Positions 33,635-43,386 of a DNA stretch of 64,000 nt are shown piece after piece; position 1 is the stretch's first letter; each line of letters starts with the position of its first letter. The stretch comes from Thermorudis peleae. GTDB lineage: Bacteria; Chloroflexota; Chloroflexia; Thermomicrobiales; Thermomicrobiaceae. Below the pieces are notes generated by a model, which did no database searches, was not told the origin of the DNA, and saw nothing but the letters and a program-made list of their open reading frames with translations. The stretch is from positions 868,001 through 932,000 of the forward strand of contig NZ_JQMP01000003.1 in NCBI RefSeq assembly GCF_000744775.1. The letters are read 5' to 3'. The position numbers and the translations under genes were made by a program.

Positions 33635-35251
33635 ATGGCAAGCGTGCCGGCACGCATCACCAGGCGACAAGGGGCCGCAAACTGGCTCGCCGCGAGCCCA
33701 TGGGCGCTCAAAGTTACCGCGCTCGTTGTCTTCACCGTCGTCACGCGCCTGCCGTTTCTCCCTAGGTATCCGTTCAACGGTGACACTGTCAACTACATGC
33801 TGGCGCTCCAGCACTTTGACCTGGCGAATGCGCAGCCACACCCGCCAGGCAATCCCCTCTACGTGCTCCTCGGCAAGGGCGTGCACGTCGTTGTCTCTGA
33901 TCCAAATGCCGCGCTGGTCTGGCTGAGCATCGGACTCGCTGCGGTCGCGGTCGCGCTGACGGCCTGGCTTGGCCGGTTGCTCTGGGATGAAGCAACCGGG
34001 CTCTGGGGCAGCCTGCTGCTCGCGGTCAACCCGCTCTTCTGGCTCTATAGCGCAGTTGGCTTGCCCTATACGGCGGAGGCAGTCGCGGGGTTGCTGGTGG
34101 GACTTGCCACGCTCGCTTGCTGGCGCTGGCCAGGACGGCGCAATGCTGTCGCACTCGGCGCAGCGGCAGCAGTTGCTGCGGGGCTCCGCCCAACAATCTT
34201 GGTCTTGCTCTGGCCGCTGCTCCTCTTGGGGCTCATTGGACTGCGCTGGCGGGATCGGCTGCGTGCGCTCGGGGTGGGCTTTGCGCTCAGCCTGCTGTGG
34301 GCAGTCCCACTGGTATGGCTGAGTGGCGGCCTGCTGCGCTACTGGAGCCTGCTGCATAGCATAACGGAGAGTTTCGCTGTGCGGACGACGGTCCTCAATG
34401 GACCGAGCCGGGCATGGCTGAACAACCTCGGCCAGCTTGGCGCGGCGCTGCTGGTTGGCCTTGGCGTGCCGGCTGTTGCCTTCGGCTACGTCTGGTTACG
34501 CGTCCGGCGCCGGCCGGCCCTTAGCCGTTTCCTGCGCTGGTATCTTGCGCTCTGGATCGTCCTGCCGCTCAGCTTCTTCGCCCTTATCCACTTTGGGCAG
34601 TGGGGATACCTGCTGCTTATTCTCCCCGTTGCGTCGCTTGCCCTGTACGCGCTGACCGCTCCAGCCCTCGGAACGACGCGTCGTGTGCAAGGGGCAACGG
34701 CTGGCTTGATGGCCAGTGTCCTCACCGTCGTGGCGTTCTTCCTTCTCCGTGTCGGCATTTGGGAGCATGACCGGTACTGGGATGCCATGCTGGCAGCGCT
34801 CCAGCAGTTTCCAGCTGATCAGACGGTCGTCTTAACACCAGATGGCAAAGCGCCACTCCGCGTACTCAACTGGCTCGCACCGCAGGAGCTTGTTCTTGGC
34901 ATTGTCCAGAATGACGATGGGCAGATTGAAGGGTTTGGGAGTGGAGCGGTCGGCCGTCAGCTCTATCGCCTGGTGATCGATCCGTCGCTGTCCGCTCAGG
35001 CTCGCCTTGTACCATACGCGAGGACGCCGCGGCAACGGCAGATGCCACAAAACTTCTGCCCGCGTGTTTCCCTCGTCGTCGTCCACGACCCAGCGTTGCA
35101 GGCCTGGGTTCGCGACGCGCCAGCCTGGAATACCCTGCAGCTTCCTGGCAGCGAGCCTCTCATCTGGCGCAGCGTGCCTTCCCAGGCCTGCCTGCAGATC
35201 CGTGATCATCGCCTTCAGGTCGTGCCCGAAGCGGCTGCTGACGAACGCTAG
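33635..35251 (+). CDS. Membrane glycosyltransferase-like protein (PMT/DUF2723 type)
   Basis: 538 residues with about eleven hydrophobic segments and a soluble C-terminal domain of about 150 residues. Near the N terminus an acidic motif (FNGDTVNYMLAL) is followed by HPPGNPLY, the pattern of dolichyl/polyprenyl-phosphate-dependent sugar transferases. Donor and acceptor unknown. Its TAG stop shares CTAG with the stop of the opposing small pilin gene. Confidence 0.7.
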   Translation: MASVPARITRRQGAANWLAASPWALKVTALVVFTVVTRLPFLPRYPFNGDTVNYMLALQHFDLANAQPHPPGNPLYVLLGKGVHVVVSDPNAALVWLSIGLAAVAVALTAWLGRLLWDEATGLWGSLLLAVNPLFWLYSAVGLPYTAEAVAGLLVGLATLACWRWPGRRNAVALGAAAAVAAGLRPTILVLLWPLLLLGLIGLRWRDRLRALGVGFALSLLWAVPLVWLSGGLLRYWSLLHSITESFAVRTTVLNGPSRAWLNNLGQLGAALLVGLGVPAVAFGYVWLRVRRRPALSRFLRWYLALWIVLPLSFFALIHFGQWGYLLLILPVASLALYALTAPALGTTRRVQGATAGLMASVLTVVAFFLLRVGIWEHDRYWDAMLAALQQFPADQTVVLTPDGKAPLRVLNWLAPQELVLGIVQNDDGQIEGFGSGAVGRQLYRLVIDPSLSAQARLVPYARTPRQRQMPQNFCPRVSLVVVHDPALQAWVRDAPAWNTLQLPGSEPLIWRSVPSQACLQIRDHRLQVVPEAAADER

Positions 35252-35418
35252 CTGCCAGGCCATTGCGCGAGGACGCGCTGATATAGGGCATTGACGGCGT
35301 TTCCAAAGGCGCTCAGCGCGACGACAACGGTTAGGGCTACGCCAAGCAAAATCAGCGCATACTCAAGCACGGCCTGGCCAGCTGTCGCAAATGGCCATGT
35401 CGTGCCGTTCTCCCACAT
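35248..35418 (-). CDS. Small Flp-type pilin (56 residues)
   Basis: Below 60 residues and easily missed. Translating the minus strand from ATG 35418 gives a short polar start, then AGQAVLEYALILLGVAL and a hydrophobic segment ending in a short tail. GQ.. EYALIL matches the processing region of type IVb Flp pilins, with the Glu at position 5 of the mature protein if cut after Gly14. It follows the main flp gene beyond a hairpin and may be a minor pilin. Confidence 0.7.
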   Translation of the reverse strand: MWENGTTWPFATAGQAVLEYALILLGVALTVVVALSAFGNAVNALYQRVLAQWPGS

Positions 35419-35593: not shown

Positions 35594-35779
35594 TTATGAT
35601 GGCAGCGAGTTATTAATCTTGTTAAACACTCCTTGAACCTTGGTGCCAAGGGTGATGAGCGCCGCGATGGCCACAATAGCCACGAGCGCGAGGATCAGAG
35701 CATACTCGACCAGCCCCTGGCCTTCGAATACGTCCTCAGGGACATACAGTCCATAGAGTGCCTTGAGATAGTCCAGCAT
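35594..35779 (-). CDS. flp: Flp-type pilin (type IVb)
   Basis: 61 residues from ATG 35779, preceded by a very strong GGGGGGAA site. Sequence: short leader region MLDYLKALYGLYVPEDVFEG, then QGLVEYALILALVAIVAI, the Flp signature with cleavage after Gly20 and Glu at mature position 5, and a short C-terminal part. Flp pili mediate tight adherence. None of the tad assembly genes (prepilin peptidase, ATPase, TadB/C) is in the window. Confidence 0.85.
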   Translation of the reverse strand: MLDYLKALYGLYVPEDVFEGQGLVEYALILALVAIVAIAALITLGTKVQGVFNKINNSLPS

Positions 35780-36091: not shown

Positions 36092-37174
36092 CTAGGCCAG
36101 CGGAACCAGTAACCGGAACCGTGTCTGTTCGTCCTGCTGTGACTCTTCACTGAAGCTTGCGCCGAGCCGTTCAAGTCGTTCGGTGACGACGCTCCCGGGC
36201 GATTGCCACTTCGCGATGGCCTGGCGCACGGCCTCGCCTGGTGCCTGGACGTCGAGGATCGCGACGGCCTGGGCTGGCTCATACTGGAGGGAGAGGGTCA
36301 GCCCCTTCAGGCTACGGGTCGCTGCAAGTACGCCGGTGAGTTCCTGGAGCAGGCGGTAGAGCGCAAGCTGGATTGCTGGTGTGAGCGGGGTATCGTGCTC
36401 TGGTCCCGTCAGTTCAACGGTAAAGCCGTACAGCCGTGCAAGTTCGCCGAGGTAACGCTTCAGCGTTTGGGTCAGGCCAAGTTCCTCGAGCACTGGTGGG
36501 CGCAGCTCGTAGAGCAAGCGGCGCGTGTCGAGCAACGCTCGGGCAATGGTCTCGCGTAAGCGCTCGAGGGCCTGTGGCACATCGTCAGGCTGGCGGGCCA
36601 GCAGCTGCTCGCAGAGTTCGACATCAAGCAACACAGTACTGAGGGCTTGGGCTGGACCATCGATAATCTGCCGTGCGACGCGCCGGCGCTCCGCTTCTTC
36701 AGCGAGGATCATCTCATCCAGACTGAGAGTATGCGTTGCATCGCCGAGGAGCCGTGTGCGTCGTTCGGCGGCCCGCACTTGTTCCTCAAAGTAGGCAAGG
36801 ACTTGCTCTGCCAGTTCGAGGAAGCGCCGGAGCCGCTCTTGCTCGCGTTCCAGAGCGTCGTACCGCTCCTGGAGTTGTTCGGCCTGGTTGCGCATCATGA
36901 ACAAGCGGATCGTCACTTCATGGGCCTGGCGAAAGGCGTCACGGATTTCGCTACGCGAATACGCTTCGAGGTTCGCTTCAATCTCCCGAAGGCGCGCACT
37001 TGCTTGCAACTCGCGCTGATTCAGCCGCTCAGCCTCACTGGCTGACTGGTCGAGCAGTAAGCTGATTTCCTGGAGTGAGCGGCTCATCTGCGCGAGTTCA
37101 CTCCGAATCGTCGCAATGATCTCGCGCAGTCGATCAGCCAGCTCGTAGATCGTTGAACTGCTCCGTGTCATCAT
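36092..37174 (-). CDS. DegS-like sensor protein lacking the phospho-acceptor histidine (probable pseudokinase)
   Basis: 360 residues: a long coiled coil (about 10-140), then a HisKA_3-like segment reading ERRRVARQIIDGPAQAL. DegS-type kinases have RE-I-H-D-G-P-A-Q here; the His is Ile171, codon ATC at 36664-36662. Downstream, LALYRLLQELTGVLA matches the start of the ATPase domain but lacks the N-box asparagine, and no DxGxG motif follows. So neither autophosphorylation nor ATP binding looks possible. No transmembrane segment or response regulator is seen. The ATG overlaps the upstream glycosyltransferase stop (TGATG). Confidence 0.8.
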   Translation of the reverse strand: MMTRSSSTIYELADRLREIIATIRSELAQMSRSLQEISLLLDQSASEAERLNQRELQASARLREIEANLEAYSRSEIRDAFRQAHEVTIRLFMMRNQAEQLQERYDALEREQERLRRFLELAEQVLAYFEEQVRAAERRTRLLGDATHTLSLDEMILAEEAERRRVARQIIDGPAQALSTVLLDVELCEQLLARQPDDVPQALERLRETIARALLDTRRLLYELRPPVLEELGLTQTLKRYLGELARLYGFTVELTGPEHDTPLTPAIQLALYRLLQELTGVLAATRSLKGLTLSLQYEPAQAVAILDVQAPGEAVRQAIAKWQSPGSVVTERLERLGASFSEESQQDEQTRFRLLVPLA

Positions 37175-38823
37175 CAACTCCTTTCTCGTTCTGTGGCGGC
37201 GCGTGCTTGTGCGTGATCGGGCAGGCGCTCAAAGATCGTGACAGCCGTATTATCGAAGATGACGCGGTACTGTGGGTCATGCTGCAATGCGTGTCGGAGG
37301 GCGGCGCAGCAGTCGCTCTGGGGATCAGGAAGCTGGGCATAAACGCCACTGATGTTTACGCGCAGTGCCGGTCGCTTGACAATATAGACATACGCGAACG
37401 AGCGATGATACTGCGCAGCCCAGTGTTCGAGGCATGTACCATCGTCAGCGTTGCATGCCTGAAGCACGGTTGCTGCGTCGATATGCTGCCAGAAGGTTGG
37501 AAACCATTCGGTTCCTTGAACGGTGTTTAGACTTATTCGTCCAGTGAGTGCCGGAAGCCATTCGCGTGATCGATCAAGGGCAGCGTCATCTTCTGTCATG
37601 ACGAGGAATGAGGCACCCGGTGGGGTGTGGCTCGCGATCCACTCCATGGCAAGGCGCTCTTGTGCGGAAAGTGGTTGCGTCAGGAGCTGAATCGCCAGCG
37701 TATTGCTAAGGATGAGGTAGAAGCCAGCATACGCGCCAAGCCCAAGGTACAGCACGTTTCGCCATCGCTCCGCAGGCAGGGCACGCTGCAGGAATGGATG
37801 AAGCACCTCGGACAGGGCGATACTGGCAAGCAAGGCAATGGGCACGCTGGCGAGGGTCAGCGCTTTCCGCGAGTCGCCGAGAAAGATCAGGACAAGCCAT
37901 GCTGGGAGAAGCCAGCGCCGGCGGTACAGGCAAACGGCAAGCCCGACCATGCTCAATGCCCGAATGCCGGGGAAACTGAGCTCCTGCGAAATATTGAGGA
38001 AAAGGAGGTTGACAAGACCAACCCATGGCGGTTGCCCTGCCCCGAGTGCTGCGCGGAACGGAGCCAGGCCGTGCTGAGCGAGCACCGTGGCCCACCACGG
38101 CGCTGACAAGGCCAGCACGCCGACGGCAACCAGCAGGGAATCGCGTACTCCCTGGCGGTTGCGCCCATACGCAAGGAAGAAGAGCAGCGCGCTAAGTGCG
38201 ACAAAGAGTGCCGTCTCGAGATGGGAGAGTACGGCGAGGCTGGCAAACAGGCTGCTGAGCGCGACACGTCGCCAGCCTCCCTCGCGGTAAAGCATGAAGA
38301 TCTGCTCGATTGCGAGCACCGCGAAGAAGAAGCCTGGAGATCGCGTCAATCCGCCGCCGACGATCTCCCAGCCGTAGGAACGAGCGAATACCGCGAAGCA
38401 CCCTGTTGCCAGCACCGCTGGAAGACCTGGCCCAAGGATCGTGCGGGCAAGTCGATAGAATGCCACGATGGTCAGCACGCTGAAGATTGGCGGAAGGAGA
38501 CGGACGGCGTCGAGCAGCGAGAGTGGCGTCATGCGGTCGACCAGCGCAGCCAGGTAGAAGCCAAGCGGTGGGTAGGCAAATGGGATGCCTGCGCCGTTGT
38601 ACGTCGTATATGCTGGCAGGCGGAAGCCATTCCGCTCTAGGTCGCGTGCCATGACGTAGAACATGCCGCCGTCGCCAAGCGGAAAGTCAGCCCGCAGGAC
38701 TGGTAACAGTCGCAGGACGGCGCCGACGAAGAACACGGCGGCGAGCAATGCTCGTTCGCCGCTCAGGCTTCTTCGTGCCGGAAGTGACGTCGGGGGAGAG
38801 ATTTCAGCCGCTGGTGTAACCAC
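37174..38823 (-). CDS. Polytopic membrane protein, glycosyltransferase-like (paralogue of 50274-51962)
   Basis: About eleven hydrophobic segments and a soluble C-terminal domain. Motifs FPLGDGGMFYVMARDLE and FAYPPLGFYLAAL resemble ArnT/PMT-type sugar transferases that use lipid-linked donors. It aligns along its length with the protein at 50274. I prefer GTG 38823, preceded by GAGGG and giving MVTP as in the paralogue; GTG 38886 adds 21 residues. Coupled by TGATG to the pseudokinase, so both are made together. Confidence 0.7.
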   Translation of the reverse strand: MVTPAAEISPPTSLPARRSLSGERALLAAVFFVGAVLRLLPVLRADFPLGDGGMFYVMARDLERNGFRLPAYTTYNGAGIPFAYPPLGFYLAALVDRMTPLSLLDAVRLLPPIFSVLTIVAFYRLARTILGPGLPAVLATGCFAVFARSYGWEIVGGGLTRSPGFFFAVLAIEQIFMLYREGGWRRVALSSLFASLAVLSHLETALFVALSALLFFLAYGRNRQGVRDSLLVAVGVLALSAPWWATVLAQHGLAPFRAALGAGQPPWVGLVNLLFLNISQELSFPGIRALSMVGLAVCLYRRRWLLPAWLVLIFLGDSRKALTLASVPIALLASIALSEVLHPFLQRALPAERWRNVLYLGLGAYAGFYLILSNTLAIQLLTQPLSAQERLAMEWIASHTPPGASFLVMTEDDAALDRSREWLPALTGRISLNTVQGTEWFPTFWQHIDAATVLQACNADDGTCLEHWAAQYHRSFAYVYIVKRPALRVNISGVYAQLPDPQSDCCAALRHALQHDPQYRVIFDNTAVTIFERLPDHAQARAATERERS

Positions 38824-39010
38824 GGGCGCCCTCGCTTCGCACAGATCGATCCGCCTGTACGCTCGCAGTCTAGCCAACGCCTGCACTGGAACGGCATGGG
38901 ACAGACGTACTTGTTTGTGCGTGACTGTCGTCGTTGCTCGGAGCCGGTAGCATGGTATGCCGTTCGCGTTGAACCAGCTGGTGAGGGGGTAACTGCCGCA
39001 CAGCCGTGGC

Positions 39011-39176: not shown

Positions 39177-40607
39177 ATGACGTCGCCTCTCCAAGCTGAG
39201 AGTCCTGATAGTTCCCCAGATTCATCATTGCTGCAGGTCGCGGCCGTTGTCCTTGCGGGTGGCCTTGGCACCCGGATGCGCTCTCGTCTCCCCAAAGAAT
39301 TGCAGCCGCTTTGCGGTCGGCCCTTGCTCCGGTATGTGCTCGATGCTCTCGCGCCGCTCCCCTTTGCCCAGCGCATCATCGTGCTGAGTCCTCGCAAGCA
39401 GGCGGTGACCGCCATGCTCCCGGAAGGGTGGCACGTTGTCTGGCAAGAAGAGCCGCTCGGCACGGGGCACGCGTTAGCCCAGGCACTGCCTGCATTGCAG
39501 CCAACGATTACCCACGTCCTTGTTGTCTTCGGCGACCATCCACTGGTAACCAGTGATGACCTGGGCCGCCTGGTGCGTGCGGTGGAAACGGAGCGTCCGC
39601 TGGTTGCCGTACTGACGACCATGCTCGATGACCCAGCGGGGTATGGGAGGATCCGCCGGCGCGGTGAAGCAGTGGCGGGTGTCGTTGAGGCGCGTGACGA
39701 TACGGCGCACTACACGGGCCCTGTTGAGGTTGTCAGCGCGGCGACGTGCTATGACCGTGCCTGGCTCGAGCGTGCAATGCCGCGGCTGCCGCGGAGTCCC
39801 TCGGGCGAGTACTACCATACGGCACTGGTCGAGATGGCCGCAGAGACGCCATGGCCGGCTCTGCCCGTTGTCACCGTGCGCGCACCGGTTGAGAGCGCGC
39901 TTGGCGTCAATGATCGGCTTGAGCTGGCGCAGGCGGAGCGAGTTTTACGCCAGCGGATCCTCGAGCGTCATCTGCGCGCCGGGGTTGCTATTGTTGACCC
40001 GGCGACGACCTATATCGATGCTGACGTTGTGATCGAGCCAGACGCTCGGATTGAACCCGGGACGATGATTATGGGAGCAAGCTGGATCGGGGCAGGCGCG
40101 CGAATCGGCCCGTACGCCATCGTGCGCGATAGCCGAATCGGGCGCGACTGTGTGGTGATAGCATCCGTTGTTGAAGAGAGCGAGCTGGGAGAAGGGGTCC
40201 ATGTCGGACCGTACTCCCATTTGCGCCCGGGGACACGGCTGGCTGACCGTGTGCACGTCGGCAATTTTGCTGAGCTGAAGAATGCCCATGTTGGGCCGGA
40301 GACGCGTATTGGCCATGTGAGCTATATCGGCGACGCTCGGCTTGGCGCGCGCGTCAATATTGGCGCTGGAACCATAACCTGTAATTACGACGGCGTTGCC
40401 AAACACGAGACGGTGATTGAAGACGAAGCGTTCATCGGGAGCGACACGATGCTGGTTGCGCCAGTGCGTGTTGGCGCGCGCGCGCGAACGGGGGCTGGCA
40501 GTGTCGTGACGCATGATGTGCCAGCGGGCGAAACGGTCGTTGGTGTTCCGGCGCGGCCGCTGGCCTCGAAGCAGACGCAGAAAACGGCAGAACAGACGGA
40601 AGCGTGA
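39177..40607 (+). CDS. glmU: Bifunctional GlcNAc-1-P uridyltransferase/GlcN-1-P acetyltransferase
   Basis: Makes UDP-GlcNAc, the precursor of peptidoglycan. The N-terminal nucleotidyltransferase starts with LAGGLGTRMRSRLPKEL; the C-terminal half is a left-handed beta helix of hexapeptide repeats with NFAELKNAHVGPETRIGH and INIGAGTITCNYDG (acetyltransferase site). 476 residues. The stop overlaps the GTG start of prs (GTGA). Confidence 0.96.
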   Translation: MTSPLQAESPDSSPDSSLLQVAAVVLAGGLGTRMRSRLPKELQPLCGRPLLRYVLDALAPLPFAQRIIVLSPRKQAVTAMLPEGWHVVWQEEPLGTGHALAQALPALQPTITHVLVVFGDHPLVTSDDLGRLVRAVETERPLVAVLTTMLDDPAGYGRIRRRGEAVAGVVEARDDTAHYTGPVEVVSAATCYDRAWLERAMPRLPRSPSGEYYHTALVEMAAETPWPALPVVTVRAPVESALGVNDRLELAQAERVLRQRILERHLRAGVAIVDPATTYIDADVVIEPDARIEPGTMIMGASWIGAGARIGPYAIVRDSRIGRDCVVIASVVEESELGEGVHVGPYSHLRPGTRLADRVHVGNFAELKNAHVGPETRIGHVSYIGDARLGARVNIGAGTITCNYDGVAKHETVIEDEAFIGSDTMLVAPVRVGARARTGAGSVVTHDVPAGETVVGVPARPLASKQTQKTAEQTEA

Positions 40608-41554
40608 GGCAAATGGTGGAAGGTCGGCTCCAGCTCTTCACTGGAAATGCGAACCCGCGGCTTGCGCAAGCAATTGCCAGTATTCTGGAGACTCCGCTTG
40701 GCCGCGCGGAAGTCGGCGCATTCAGTGACAGCGAAACGCGAGTGCGGCTCGAAGAGAATGTGCGTGGCTCTGACGTCTTTGTGATCCAGCCACTCTGCGC
40801 TCCAGTGAACCAGCACATTATGGAACTGCTCATCATGCTCGATGCGGTGCGCCGGGCGTCGGCTGCTCGAATCACAGCCGTGATCCCGTACTACGCGTAC
40901 GCTCGACAGGAGAAGAAGACAGCTGGGCGCGAGCCGATCAGTGCCAAGCTCCTGGCTAACCTCTTGACGACGGCAGGGGCCGACCGCATTCTCACCGTCG
41001 ACTTGCATGCACCAGCAATTGAGGGCTTCTTCGACATTCCCGTTGATCATTTGCGGGCGACACCAATTTTGGCGGCGCATGCCCGTCGTCTCGGCCTTGA
41101 GCGGCTGGTTGTTGTCAGTCCGGATACGGGAGCCGTTGCGCGGGCTGAAGAGTTTCGGCGGCGAGTCGGGGGCGGACTTGCCATCATCTCCAAGCAGCGC
41201 CCCAGCCCAGAAATGGCCGAGATGCATGAGATGGTTGGCGAAGTTGAAGGCCGCGATGTCATTATCGTCGACGACATCATTGCGTCTGGCGGCACGCTCC
41301 TGAAAGCAATTGAGCTGTTGCAGGCTCGGGGCGTGCGGCACATCTTCGCCGCAGCCATTCACGGTGTCTTCAGTGGCGATGCGCTGCGGCGGATTGCTGA
41401 ATCACCGATTGAACGTGTCTTCGTGACCGATACGATCCCACTGCCTGACAATGGCCCGGTCGACAAGATTGAAGTGCTGACGGTCGCGCCGCTGCTCGCT
41501 GAGGCGATTATGCGCATCCATAAGGATCTCAGCATTAGTGCACTTTTTACATAA
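40604..41554 (+). CDS. prs: Ribose-phosphate pyrophosphokinase
   Basis: Makes PRPP from ribose 5-phosphate and ATP. Seen: FSDSETRVRL near the start, the flexible ARQEKKTAGREPISAKL loop, DLHAPAIEGFFDIPVDHL and the PRPP loop VIIVDDIIASGGTL. 316 residues. The second ATG (40613) could also serve as start. The glmU-prs pairing is common in bacteria. Confidence 0.96.
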   Translation: MRQMVEGRLQLFTGNANPRLAQAIASILETPLGRAEVGAFSDSETRVRLEENVRGSDVFVIQPLCAPVNQHIMELLIMLDAVRRASAARITAVIPYYAYARQEKKTAGREPISAKLLANLLTTAGADRILTVDLHAPAIEGFFDIPVDHLRATPILAAHARRLGLERLVVVSPDTGAVARAEEFRRRVGGGLAIISKQRPSPEMAEMHEMVGEVEGRDVIIVDDIIASGGTLLKAIELLQARGVRHIFAAAIHGVFSGDALRRIAESPIERVFVTDTIPLPDNGPVDKIEVLTVAPLLAEAIMRIHKDLSISALFT

Positions 41555-41602
41555 TAGCCAAGCGCGGCGTGCCCACGGGCGGACACGTGGAGCGGTGATG
41601 CA

Positions 41603-42844
41603 TTGCGACACGACATCGTTGTCATTCTGGAGCTCATCCTGCTAATCCTTGCAACGTTCGGCCTCCTGCTTGCGGCAATTGCCGAGGCTGCATGTACCGC
41701 GGTCTTTCGCCGTCCATTACGCGAATTGCTTGAGCTTTTGGCGGAACCGGCGAGTTTGCCGGCTACGCGGTTGGAGCGTTTGCGCCAGGCGACGGATGGG
41801 GTACGGGTTGCGCTCCTGCTGATGCAAGGAATCCTTGCGCTCGTGCTGAGCGACCTGCTCCGCCGGCTGCTCGGCACAGCCGCGCTGGCTGTCGGCATCG
41901 TGAGTGTTGCCGGTGCCGCGATCATCGCCCAGGGTGTTGTGGTTGCGGTCGGACGCTCACGTCAGCGAGTACCCATCGGAGCCCAACGGCTGGCACTCTG
42001 GACTGGACAAATTGCTCGGCCCCTCGTTGCGCTTGGTGCACTGTTTGCTCGCGTGGTCGCTGGACCACCACAACCCTCGCCACTTTCGGCAAGCGGGATG
42101 AGCCCAGACGAAGAAGCGGCGATGGTTGTCCGTGTATTGCGCCTCGACCGGTTGACTGCGCGTGATGTCATGGTCCCGCGGATGGACATTGCAGCGGTCC
42201 CTGCTGACATGATGGCCCGGGATGTCTTGGCGCTTGCTCGGCAGACGGGCCATGCGCGCTTTCCGGTCTACCGCGAGCGCATCGATCAGATTGTTGGTGT
42301 GGTTGTGGTCAAGGATGTGCTGCAACTGCTTGAAAATCCCGCGTTGCTTGAGCAAAAACGTGCTGGTGAGCTTGCTCGCCCAGCGTACTTTGTGCCTGAG
42401 TCGAAGCGGCTCGATTTGCTCTTGCGTGAGTTACAACAACAGCGCATGCCTATGGCCATCGTCGTTGACGAGTTTGGCGGTACGGCTGGACTGGTCACCA
42501 TCGAAGATATTCTTGAACAGATTGTTGGTGAATTGCGTGATGAGTATGACGCCCAACCACCTGAGGTGCAATGGATTGGGCCAAATGAGGCAGTAGTTGA
42601 TGGCCGATTGAGTCTCGAGGAGCTCAGCGCAGCGTTTGCTGTACCGATTGACGATGACGAGGCGACGACGGTCAGTGGCCTTGTCCAGCAGCAACTCGGG
42701 CATATTCCGCAAGCTGGCGAGTCGGTTCACATTGATGGGTTGCGGATCGAAGTGTTGACGGTCGAAGGGCGGCGCGTGCGGCAGATGCGTATTGTGCGTG
42801 AGACGCCAGCCGAGGTCAGTCCACGAGAAGTTGAGCAAGAATGA
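41603..42844 (+). CDS. CorC/HlyC-family CBS-domain membrane protein
   Basis: 413 residues. The N terminus has about three hydrophobic segments of DUF21/CNNM type, poorly conserved. Two CBS domains follow (RDVMVPRMDI ... GHARFPVYRE; EFGGTAGLVTIEDILEQIVGE), then a C-terminal CorC/HlyC transporter-associated domain. Such proteins are linked to magnesium or cobalt efflux. The start is TTG 41603. Its end overlaps the biotin ligase by ATGA. Confidence 0.85.
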   Translation: MRHDIVVILELILLILATFGLLLAAIAEAACTAVFRRPLRELLELLAEPASLPATRLERLRQATDGVRVALLLMQGILALVLSDLLRRLLGTAALAVGIVSVAGAAIIAQGVVVAVGRSRQRVPIGAQRLALWTGQIARPLVALGALFARVVAGPPQPSPLSASGMSPDEEAAMVVRVLRLDRLTARDVMVPRMDIAAVPADMMARDVLALARQTGHARFPVYRERIDQIVGVVVVKDVLQLLENPALLEQKRAGELARPAYFVPESKRLDLLLRELQQQRMPMAIVVDEFGGTAGLVTIEDILEQIVGELRDEYDAQPPEVQWIGPNEAVVDGRLSLEELSAAFAVPIDDDEATTVSGLVQQQLGHIPQAGESVHIDGLRIEVLTVEGRRVRQMRIVRETPAEVSPREVEQE

Positions 42845-43386
42845 TCTGCTGGCGTATCGAATGGCTTGACCGCGTCTCGTCAACGATGGATGTTGCAGCT
42901 GAGCGGGCACAGCGTGGTGCGCCCGCCGGCACGGTCATTGTTGCCGATGAGCAAACGGCAGGACGTGGGCGTGAAGGGCGGCGGTGGTTTGCTCCGGCCG
43001 GGACATCGTTACTGTTTACGGTGATTGCGCGCCCTCCGTTGGCGGTAGTTCAAAATCCGATGCTTTCAGTTGCAATTGCCGAGCGTGTTGCAGCGGCATT
43101 GATGCCATTAACGGGATTGCCGATCACGATCAAAGAGCCGAATGACCTCATGGTCAACGGGCGGAAGCTTGCGGGCATTCTCTGCCAGAGCCGCATTACC
43201 CGTGATCAGGTCGACTATCTGCTGATTGGTATCGGCTTGAATGTCAACATTCCCCCCGACCAGTTGCCTTTGCCGACGGCAACAAGTCTCCTCGCTGAAA
43301 CTGGTCGTGTCTTCGATCGCCACGCCTTACTTGATGCCGTGCTACACTCGCTGCGTGAGCTACCAGGAGTGTGGGATCTGCAGTAA
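42841..43386 (+). CDS. birA: Biotin-[acetyl-CoA carboxylase] ligase, short form
   Basis: Attaches biotin to the carboxyl-carrier protein. The catalytic core is present: STMDVAAERA, the GRGREGRRWFAP biotin/AMP loop, and RKLAGILCQS. Two oddities: the usual KWPND reads KEPND, and at 181 residues the protein ends right after the core, lacking the C-terminal SH3-like domain (usual length about 235-265 without a DNA-binding domain). No continuation was seen in another frame. It may be a minimal or impaired enzyme. Confidence 0.82.
   Translation: MICWRIEWLDRVSSTMDVAAERAQRGAPAGTVIVADEQTAGRGREGRRWFAPAGTSLLFTVIARPPLAVVQNPMLSVAIAERVAAALMPLTGLPITIKEPNDLMVNGRKLAGILCQSRITRDQVDYLLIGIGLNVNIPPDQLPLPTATSLLAETGRVFDRHALLDAVLHSLRELPGVWDLQ

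Follow-up and report, generated by a model that had tools for sequence, protein, structure and literature searches.

A conserved DegS-type pseudokinase beside pilin genes in Thermomicrobiales suggests an enzyme turned pilus-linked off-switch or adaptor

Introduction

Pseudo-histidine kinases are already known, with Caulobacter DivL and Streptococcus RocA the clear natural cases and few others in the literature that we searched. DivL has Tyr at the position of the phospho-acceptor His (PMC4211667), RocA interacts with CovS (PMC7028121), and a ChrS pseudokinase evolved in Corynebacterium heterodimerises with HrrS (PMC9491836). RocA and this ChrS are kinase-dead sensors that work through an active kinase and its regulator. 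In the phosphatase complex of Bacillus subtilis DesK with DesR, Gln193, Leu200 and Arg235 of DesK contact the regulator, the His is marginal and Gln193 sits where it can orient the attacking water; the same work also cites the His as non-essential for the phosphatase activity of NarX (PMC5231405). DesK H188V has been crystallised as a phosphatase-state form (PMC6879721).

Here we describe a DegS-type pseudokinase encoded in a 64,000-nucleotide stretch of the Thermorudis peleae genome; this whole stretch is the window to which positions given without a contig refer. The protein shares with DesK the HisKA_3 DHp-CA fold, the phosphatase Gln and the regulator-contact Leu and Arg, whereas DesK, a transmembrane sensor, has its ATP site intact, and its H188V form is man-made. 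Like DivL, it is a natural pseudo-histidine kinase that lacks the phospho-acceptor His across an order; unlike it, DivL is of HisKA type, has PAS domains and Tyr at the site, keeps its N and G boxes, and has no described link to a pilus. RocA differs in being a membrane protein with a dispensable His, and the ChrS pseudokinase in having arisen by a laboratory frameshift; neither shows a pilus link or order-wide conservation. The intact DegS2 kinases of Chloroflexota Tad/Flp loci are orthologous to it by tree and share the DegS domain, the DHp helices and adjoining Flp genes, but in them the His is present together with the N, G1 and G2 boxes, and outside Chloroflexia a response regulator usually adjoins them.

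By sequence, the protein behaves as a pseudo-histidine kinase of the DivL/RocA kind, conserved under selection and apparently without kinase chemistry, and homology and operon structure point to a candidate partner kinase and response regulator through which it might act. No DegS/HisKA_3 pseudokinase family of this kind was described in the literature searched, which did not extend to most subscription papers. The family adds such an example, together with intact orthologues and an intermediate that has gone half-way, losing the ATP site but not the His. It also offers named candidate partners, a predicted output (Tad pili) and a natural counterpart of DesK H188V, and it makes directly testable in what order, and with what effect, kinase chemistry is lost while regulator docking stays.

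Results

An intact frame encodes a DegS-type protein without kinase motifs

The gene and the parts of its product are placed in the window as follows.

36092..37174, minus strand: DegS-type pseudokinase (Thermomicrobiales DegS2), 360 aa and stop
36749..37165, minus strand: N-terminal DegS domain, a predicted long helical hairpin, residues 4-142 (from Pfam DegS, AlphaFold2 and entropy)
36662..36664, minus strand: codon ATC of Ile171, at the phospho-acceptor His position
36503..36721, minus strand: DHp (HisKA_3) helices, residues 152-224, with Q176, L183 and R218 invariant
36101..36421, minus strand: degenerate CA domain (no N, G1 or G2 motif), residues 252-358, its fold still predicted

The initial annotation, made without stating the strand, had described a sensor in an intact frame that had lost its phospho-acceptor His and its ATP-binding motifs, and all three points held. 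The frame is open from 36092 to 37174 on the minus strand. Pfam DegS matches residues 16-126 (E=2.4e-13) and HisKA_3 residues 162-229 (E=1.8e-12), both above the cut-off. The H box, RRVARQIIDGPAQ (RQI-I-DGPAQ), has Ile171 where DegS-type kinases carry His, and alignment revealed neither the N-box Asn nor the G1 Asp nor the G2 Gly. Pfam gave no HATPase_c match in this protein, whereas the DegS1 paralogue of the same genome matches at 2e-17.

AlphaFold2 predicts helices at residues 4-67 and 74-142 with pLDDT mostly >90. The single-chain model has a pLDDT of 82 and a pTM of 0.47, and domain placement in it is unreliable because the pTM is low; DesK H188V is among its nearest solved structures and DivL also among its matches, at large rmsd values. 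Phage protein families gave no match, and promoter and terminator scans nothing informative on operon structure.

The His is missing across the order while the gene is maintained

We searched 61 genomes of the order and recovered full or nearly full-length orthologues from 16 (one slightly cut) and fragments from two more; the genome of the window is G000, and the named contigs of its family come from Thermomicrobiaceae, Sphaerobacter, Thermomicrobium and Thermalbibacter. The His is absent from all 14 members in Thermomicrobiaceae and from both members of a second family. The only member with His is G041, the deepest branch of the clade, and its N and G boxes are also missing. The position holds Ile in G000, Val in genus g3 and Sphaerobacter, Leu in G004, Glu in Thermomicrobium, Ala in G008, and Thr in G030 and the fragment from G025. 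The loss of the His is thus general (bar G041), but genera differ in what replaces it; no substitute is fixed, and the Ile about whose fixation the initial annotation had asked is one of several residues found there.

Sequencing error or recent mutation can be ruled out, as we looked for His in close relatives and none of them has it. The idea that a different histidine is phosphorylated fared no better in a conservation check, which found none invariant; in 3 of 15, Gln takes the place of the best candidate, His85. A His does stand at position +1 in Thermomicrobium, but there too the ATP site is missing.

A decaying gene, a kinase on its way to being lost, might show differing residues between genera, as at an unconstrained site, and would be absent from some genomes of the order, as this gene is. 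Such decay is contradicted by frames intact in every full-length member, by residues invariant across the order and by pairwise dN/dS values of 0.07-0.30, of the same order of magnitude as in the active paralogue (0.09-0.23), and we regard it as extremely improbable. These comparisons indicate instead that purifying selection maintains the pseudokinase, in line with the initial annotation.

The pseudokinases belong to a Tad-pilus-linked kinase family

Searching 400 genomes of the phylum yielded orthologues in about 100, and the H, N and G boxes are intact in the best 21 from outside the order. In an IQ-TREE phylogeny, the pseudokinases form one clade (100/100) inside DegS2, beside intact Chloroflexia proteins and apart from DegS1. 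Judged by homology, then, the pseudokinase is what DegS2, a DegS-type kinase linked to Tad pili, has become in Thermomicrobiales. Outside this order, most DegS2 proteins are intact kinases encoded in Tad/Flp pilus loci. Several other lineages have the operon order DegS1 - NarL-type response regulator - DegS2, followed in some by Flp - CpaB - TadZ - CpaF - TadB - TadC.

A partner search, as the initial annotation had suggested, led in G000 to an intact DegS1 and a NarL-type regulator at about 398-400 kb of contig C4 (regulator G000:C4:398310-399071), unlinked to the pseudokinase gene. The Tad machinery CpaB-TadZ-CpaF-TadB-TadC lies on C3, at about 1.077-1.083 Mb. The pseudokinase thus has candidate partners, since G000 keeps DegS1, the regulator and the Tad machinery elsewhere. 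The C4 regulator is the clear G000 counterpart of the Tad-linked regulator (58%, next 44%). Of the 14 pseudokinase genomes with a completeness of 90% or more, 13 have an orthologue of it; in the remaining one, G008, neither such a regulator nor DegS1 was detected.

Two further features of these loci were seen. In the TadZ-like protein of G000 (L145 5788-7053, on C3), a ParA-type ATPase is preceded by a fused receiver domain at the N terminus. A Sphaerobacter DegS1 (L149 8846-10243; G001:C1:1778926-1779948) has an in-frame TAG just before the H box, which may be genuine or stem from the assembly; its counterpart in the related genome G006 is intact.

Flp pilin genes adjoin the pseudokinase

The neighbouring genes are the following.

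33635..35251, plus strand: 538-aa TMEM260-like membrane glycosyltransferase, also downstream of Sphaerobacter orthologues
35248..35418, minus strand: 56-aa Flp-like pilin 2, recognised by its conserved position and the prepilin motif GQAVLEYALIL
35594..35779, minus strand: Flp-type pilin 1 (Pfam Flp_Fap and conserved downstream position; start ATG 35779, ATG 35797 possible)
37174..38886, minus strand: 570-aa membrane protein with a weak PMT_2 glycosyltransferase match, a lineage-specific neighbour
39177..43386, plus strand: glmU, prs, CBS-domain protein and birA (names from sequence), a syntenic anchor that adjoins orthologues in three families

The initial annotation had drawn attention to a TGATG coupling with a glycosyltransferase. 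The overlap is real (bases 37176-37172, joining the pseudokinase start to the stop of the upstream 570-aa PMT_2-like protein), but it is lineage-specific; since it is absent from every other genome examined, a glycosyltransferase operon as the key to function was ruled out. In other classes, genes for long membrane proteins are repeatedly found close to the locus, but two that we checked gave no Pfam match, and we therefore make no claim of glycosylation.

The pilin genes, which had also been pointed out, do adjoin the pseudokinase, and this neighbourhood is conserved. Pilin 1 scored 31.6 bits against the Flp_Fap cut-off of 32.2, and 32.3 in a second run; pilin 2 had no Pfam match. Two same-strand Flp genes lie downstream in 12/12 members outside genus g3 with downstream sequence (G000, G001, G004, G005, G006, G009, G010, G013, G016, G019, G025 and G030), contig edges placing G008 and G041 outside the count. 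The locus adjoins glmU-prs in families f1, f2 and f3. In genus g3 (L034, L035), the pseudokinase gene has left glmU-prs, lies among other neighbours and adjoins no Flp. The gene keeps the company of a Tad-locus component, with Flp genes in the order and Tad operons in other classes. Counted by hand in 30 genomes of the order at least 90% complete (two of them >5% contaminated; relatedness uncorrected), pseudokinase and Flp were both present in 12, both absent in 15 and present singly in 3. The link to the pilins is tighter than that to the regulator, because DegS1 and the regulator occur without the pseudokinase in four genomes (G003, G012, G017 and G018).

Such a neighbourhood would suit a structural scaffold for Tad pilus assembly or localisation, its two-component role gone. 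The conserved downstream pilins, a presence that tracks Flp more closely than the regulator, and very high N-terminal conservation are all consistent with this. Nevertheless, the residues that contact the regulator are invariant, the orthologues are active kinases beside a regulator, and the g3 gene is conserved although it has moved away from Flp, and a purely structural role seems to us improbable.

Regulator-contact residues are kept and kinase residues lost

We aligned 16 pseudokinases against active DegS1 and DegS2. The His is present in 1/16 and the N-box Asn and G1 Asp in 0/16, whereas Q176, L183 and R218, aligned with DesK Gln193, Leu200 and Arg235, are kept in 16/16. The Gln at His+5 (Q176) and the regulator-contact residues thus occur in every member, as in HDxxxQ phosphatases (NarX/DesK mechanism), and the acid position at His+1 (DesK Asp189) is Asp or Glu in 12/16 and His in the other four. 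Taken over overlapping but not identical sets of species, the N-terminal domain has a mean entropy of 0.98 bits for the pseudokinases versus 2.03 for same-order DegS1, while that of the DHp is similar (1.17 versus 1.05). Constraint therefore centres on the hairpin, and no other part of the pseudokinases is as conserved.

We favor a signalling role on the regulator over a pure scaffold because docking and phosphatase residues are invariant while kinase residues are lost, and because the orthologues are kinases that have, in a Tad-pilus cluster, a NarL-type regulator common to a second kinase. Of the structural or signalling scaffold first proposed, the signalling half is retained; a purely structural one is not the best reading.

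Our best explanation, held with less than even confidence, is that the kinase-dead DegS2 docks on the shared regulator and probably dephosphorylates or sequesters its phosphorylated form against DegS1, under control of the hairpin and in connection with the pilus. The pseudokinase would neither make nor pass on phosphate. Its DHp helices would dock it on the C4 regulator (G000:C4:398310-399071), and Gln176, equivalent to the residue that positions water for hydrolysis of the phosphorylated regulator in DesK and NarX, would let it act as a phosphatase in one direction only, or failing that as a sink. In this way it would oppose DegS1, and the job of a bifunctional kinase/phosphatase would be split between two paralogues. 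The N-terminal hairpin may sense the state of the pilin or the Tad pilus and set when the pseudokinase acts, with control of Tad pili the predicted output. A pseudokinase retained over a very long period in thermophilic Chloroflexota, mostly next to its pilins and with its putative regulator-docking surface intact, suggests an enzyme turned pilus-linked off-switch or adaptor.

Several points weigh against a phosphatase. Active kinases, too, conserve Q176, L183 and R218, and the reason for their retention may lie in folding or in the packing of the dimer. The DesK Asp189 position is Glu in three members and His in four, all Thermomicrobium. Four genomes have DegS1 and the regulator without the pseudokinase, G008 has the pseudokinase with neither detected, the pair is unlinked to the pseudokinase gene in G000, and Chloroflexia keep both kinases active.

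The retention of docking residues with loss of kinase chemistry could also mean that the protein reads the regulator, binding its phosphorylated form, leaving it unchanged and relaying its state through the N-terminal hairpin, so that signal flow is reversed. DivL does likewise with Tyr at the His position (PMC4211667) and is among the structural matches, and the hairpin is the most constrained part of the protein. However, DivL keeps the N and G boxes that the pseudokinases have lost (PMC4211667), and a reader would not need an invariant phosphatase Gln; we give this reading a small probability.

Alternatively, the pseudokinase could tune active DegS1 allosterically by joining it in complexes or heterodimers, with the coiled coil and the DHp helices as the interface. 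DegS1 and DegS2 are paralogues with common operons in other classes, RocA-CovS (PMC7028121) and ChrS-HrrS (PMC9491836) provide precedents, and the helices of the pseudokinase are well preserved. Against this stand the divergence of the two N-terminal domains (DegS1 has no Pfam DegS match) and G008, whose pseudokinase has no detected DegS1, and we consider such a partnership unlikely.

DegS2 has lost kinase chemistry more than once

Parsimony on the tree implies at least two losses of the ATP site and at least two of the His in DegS2, the placements of f30, f40 and G085 being unsure owing to long branches. DegS2 proteins of f40, f54 and f30 lack the ATP site but retain the His, and most are encoded in operons that also contain DegS1 and the regulator. 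These proteins (L170-L178 in f40 and f54, L183-L185 in f30) might accept phosphate or act as partners in heterodimers. That ATP-site loss goes with the presence of DegS1 is no more than a suggestion, because Chloroflexia DegS1 and DegS2 are both still active kinases by motif and G085, in which no DegS1 was found, has a DegS2 that looks ATP-dead. It is conceivable, if doubtful, that Chloroflexota have repeatedly split a bifunctional sensor into an active DegS1 and a phosphatase-only, Flp-tied DegS2, with one regulator common to both; the ATP site of DegS2 would have gone at least twice, the His surviving in one lineage and disappearing in the other. In G149, a DegS2 in a two-kinase Tad operon (L137 8112-9197) has Gln in place of the His, and its N and G boxes are intact.
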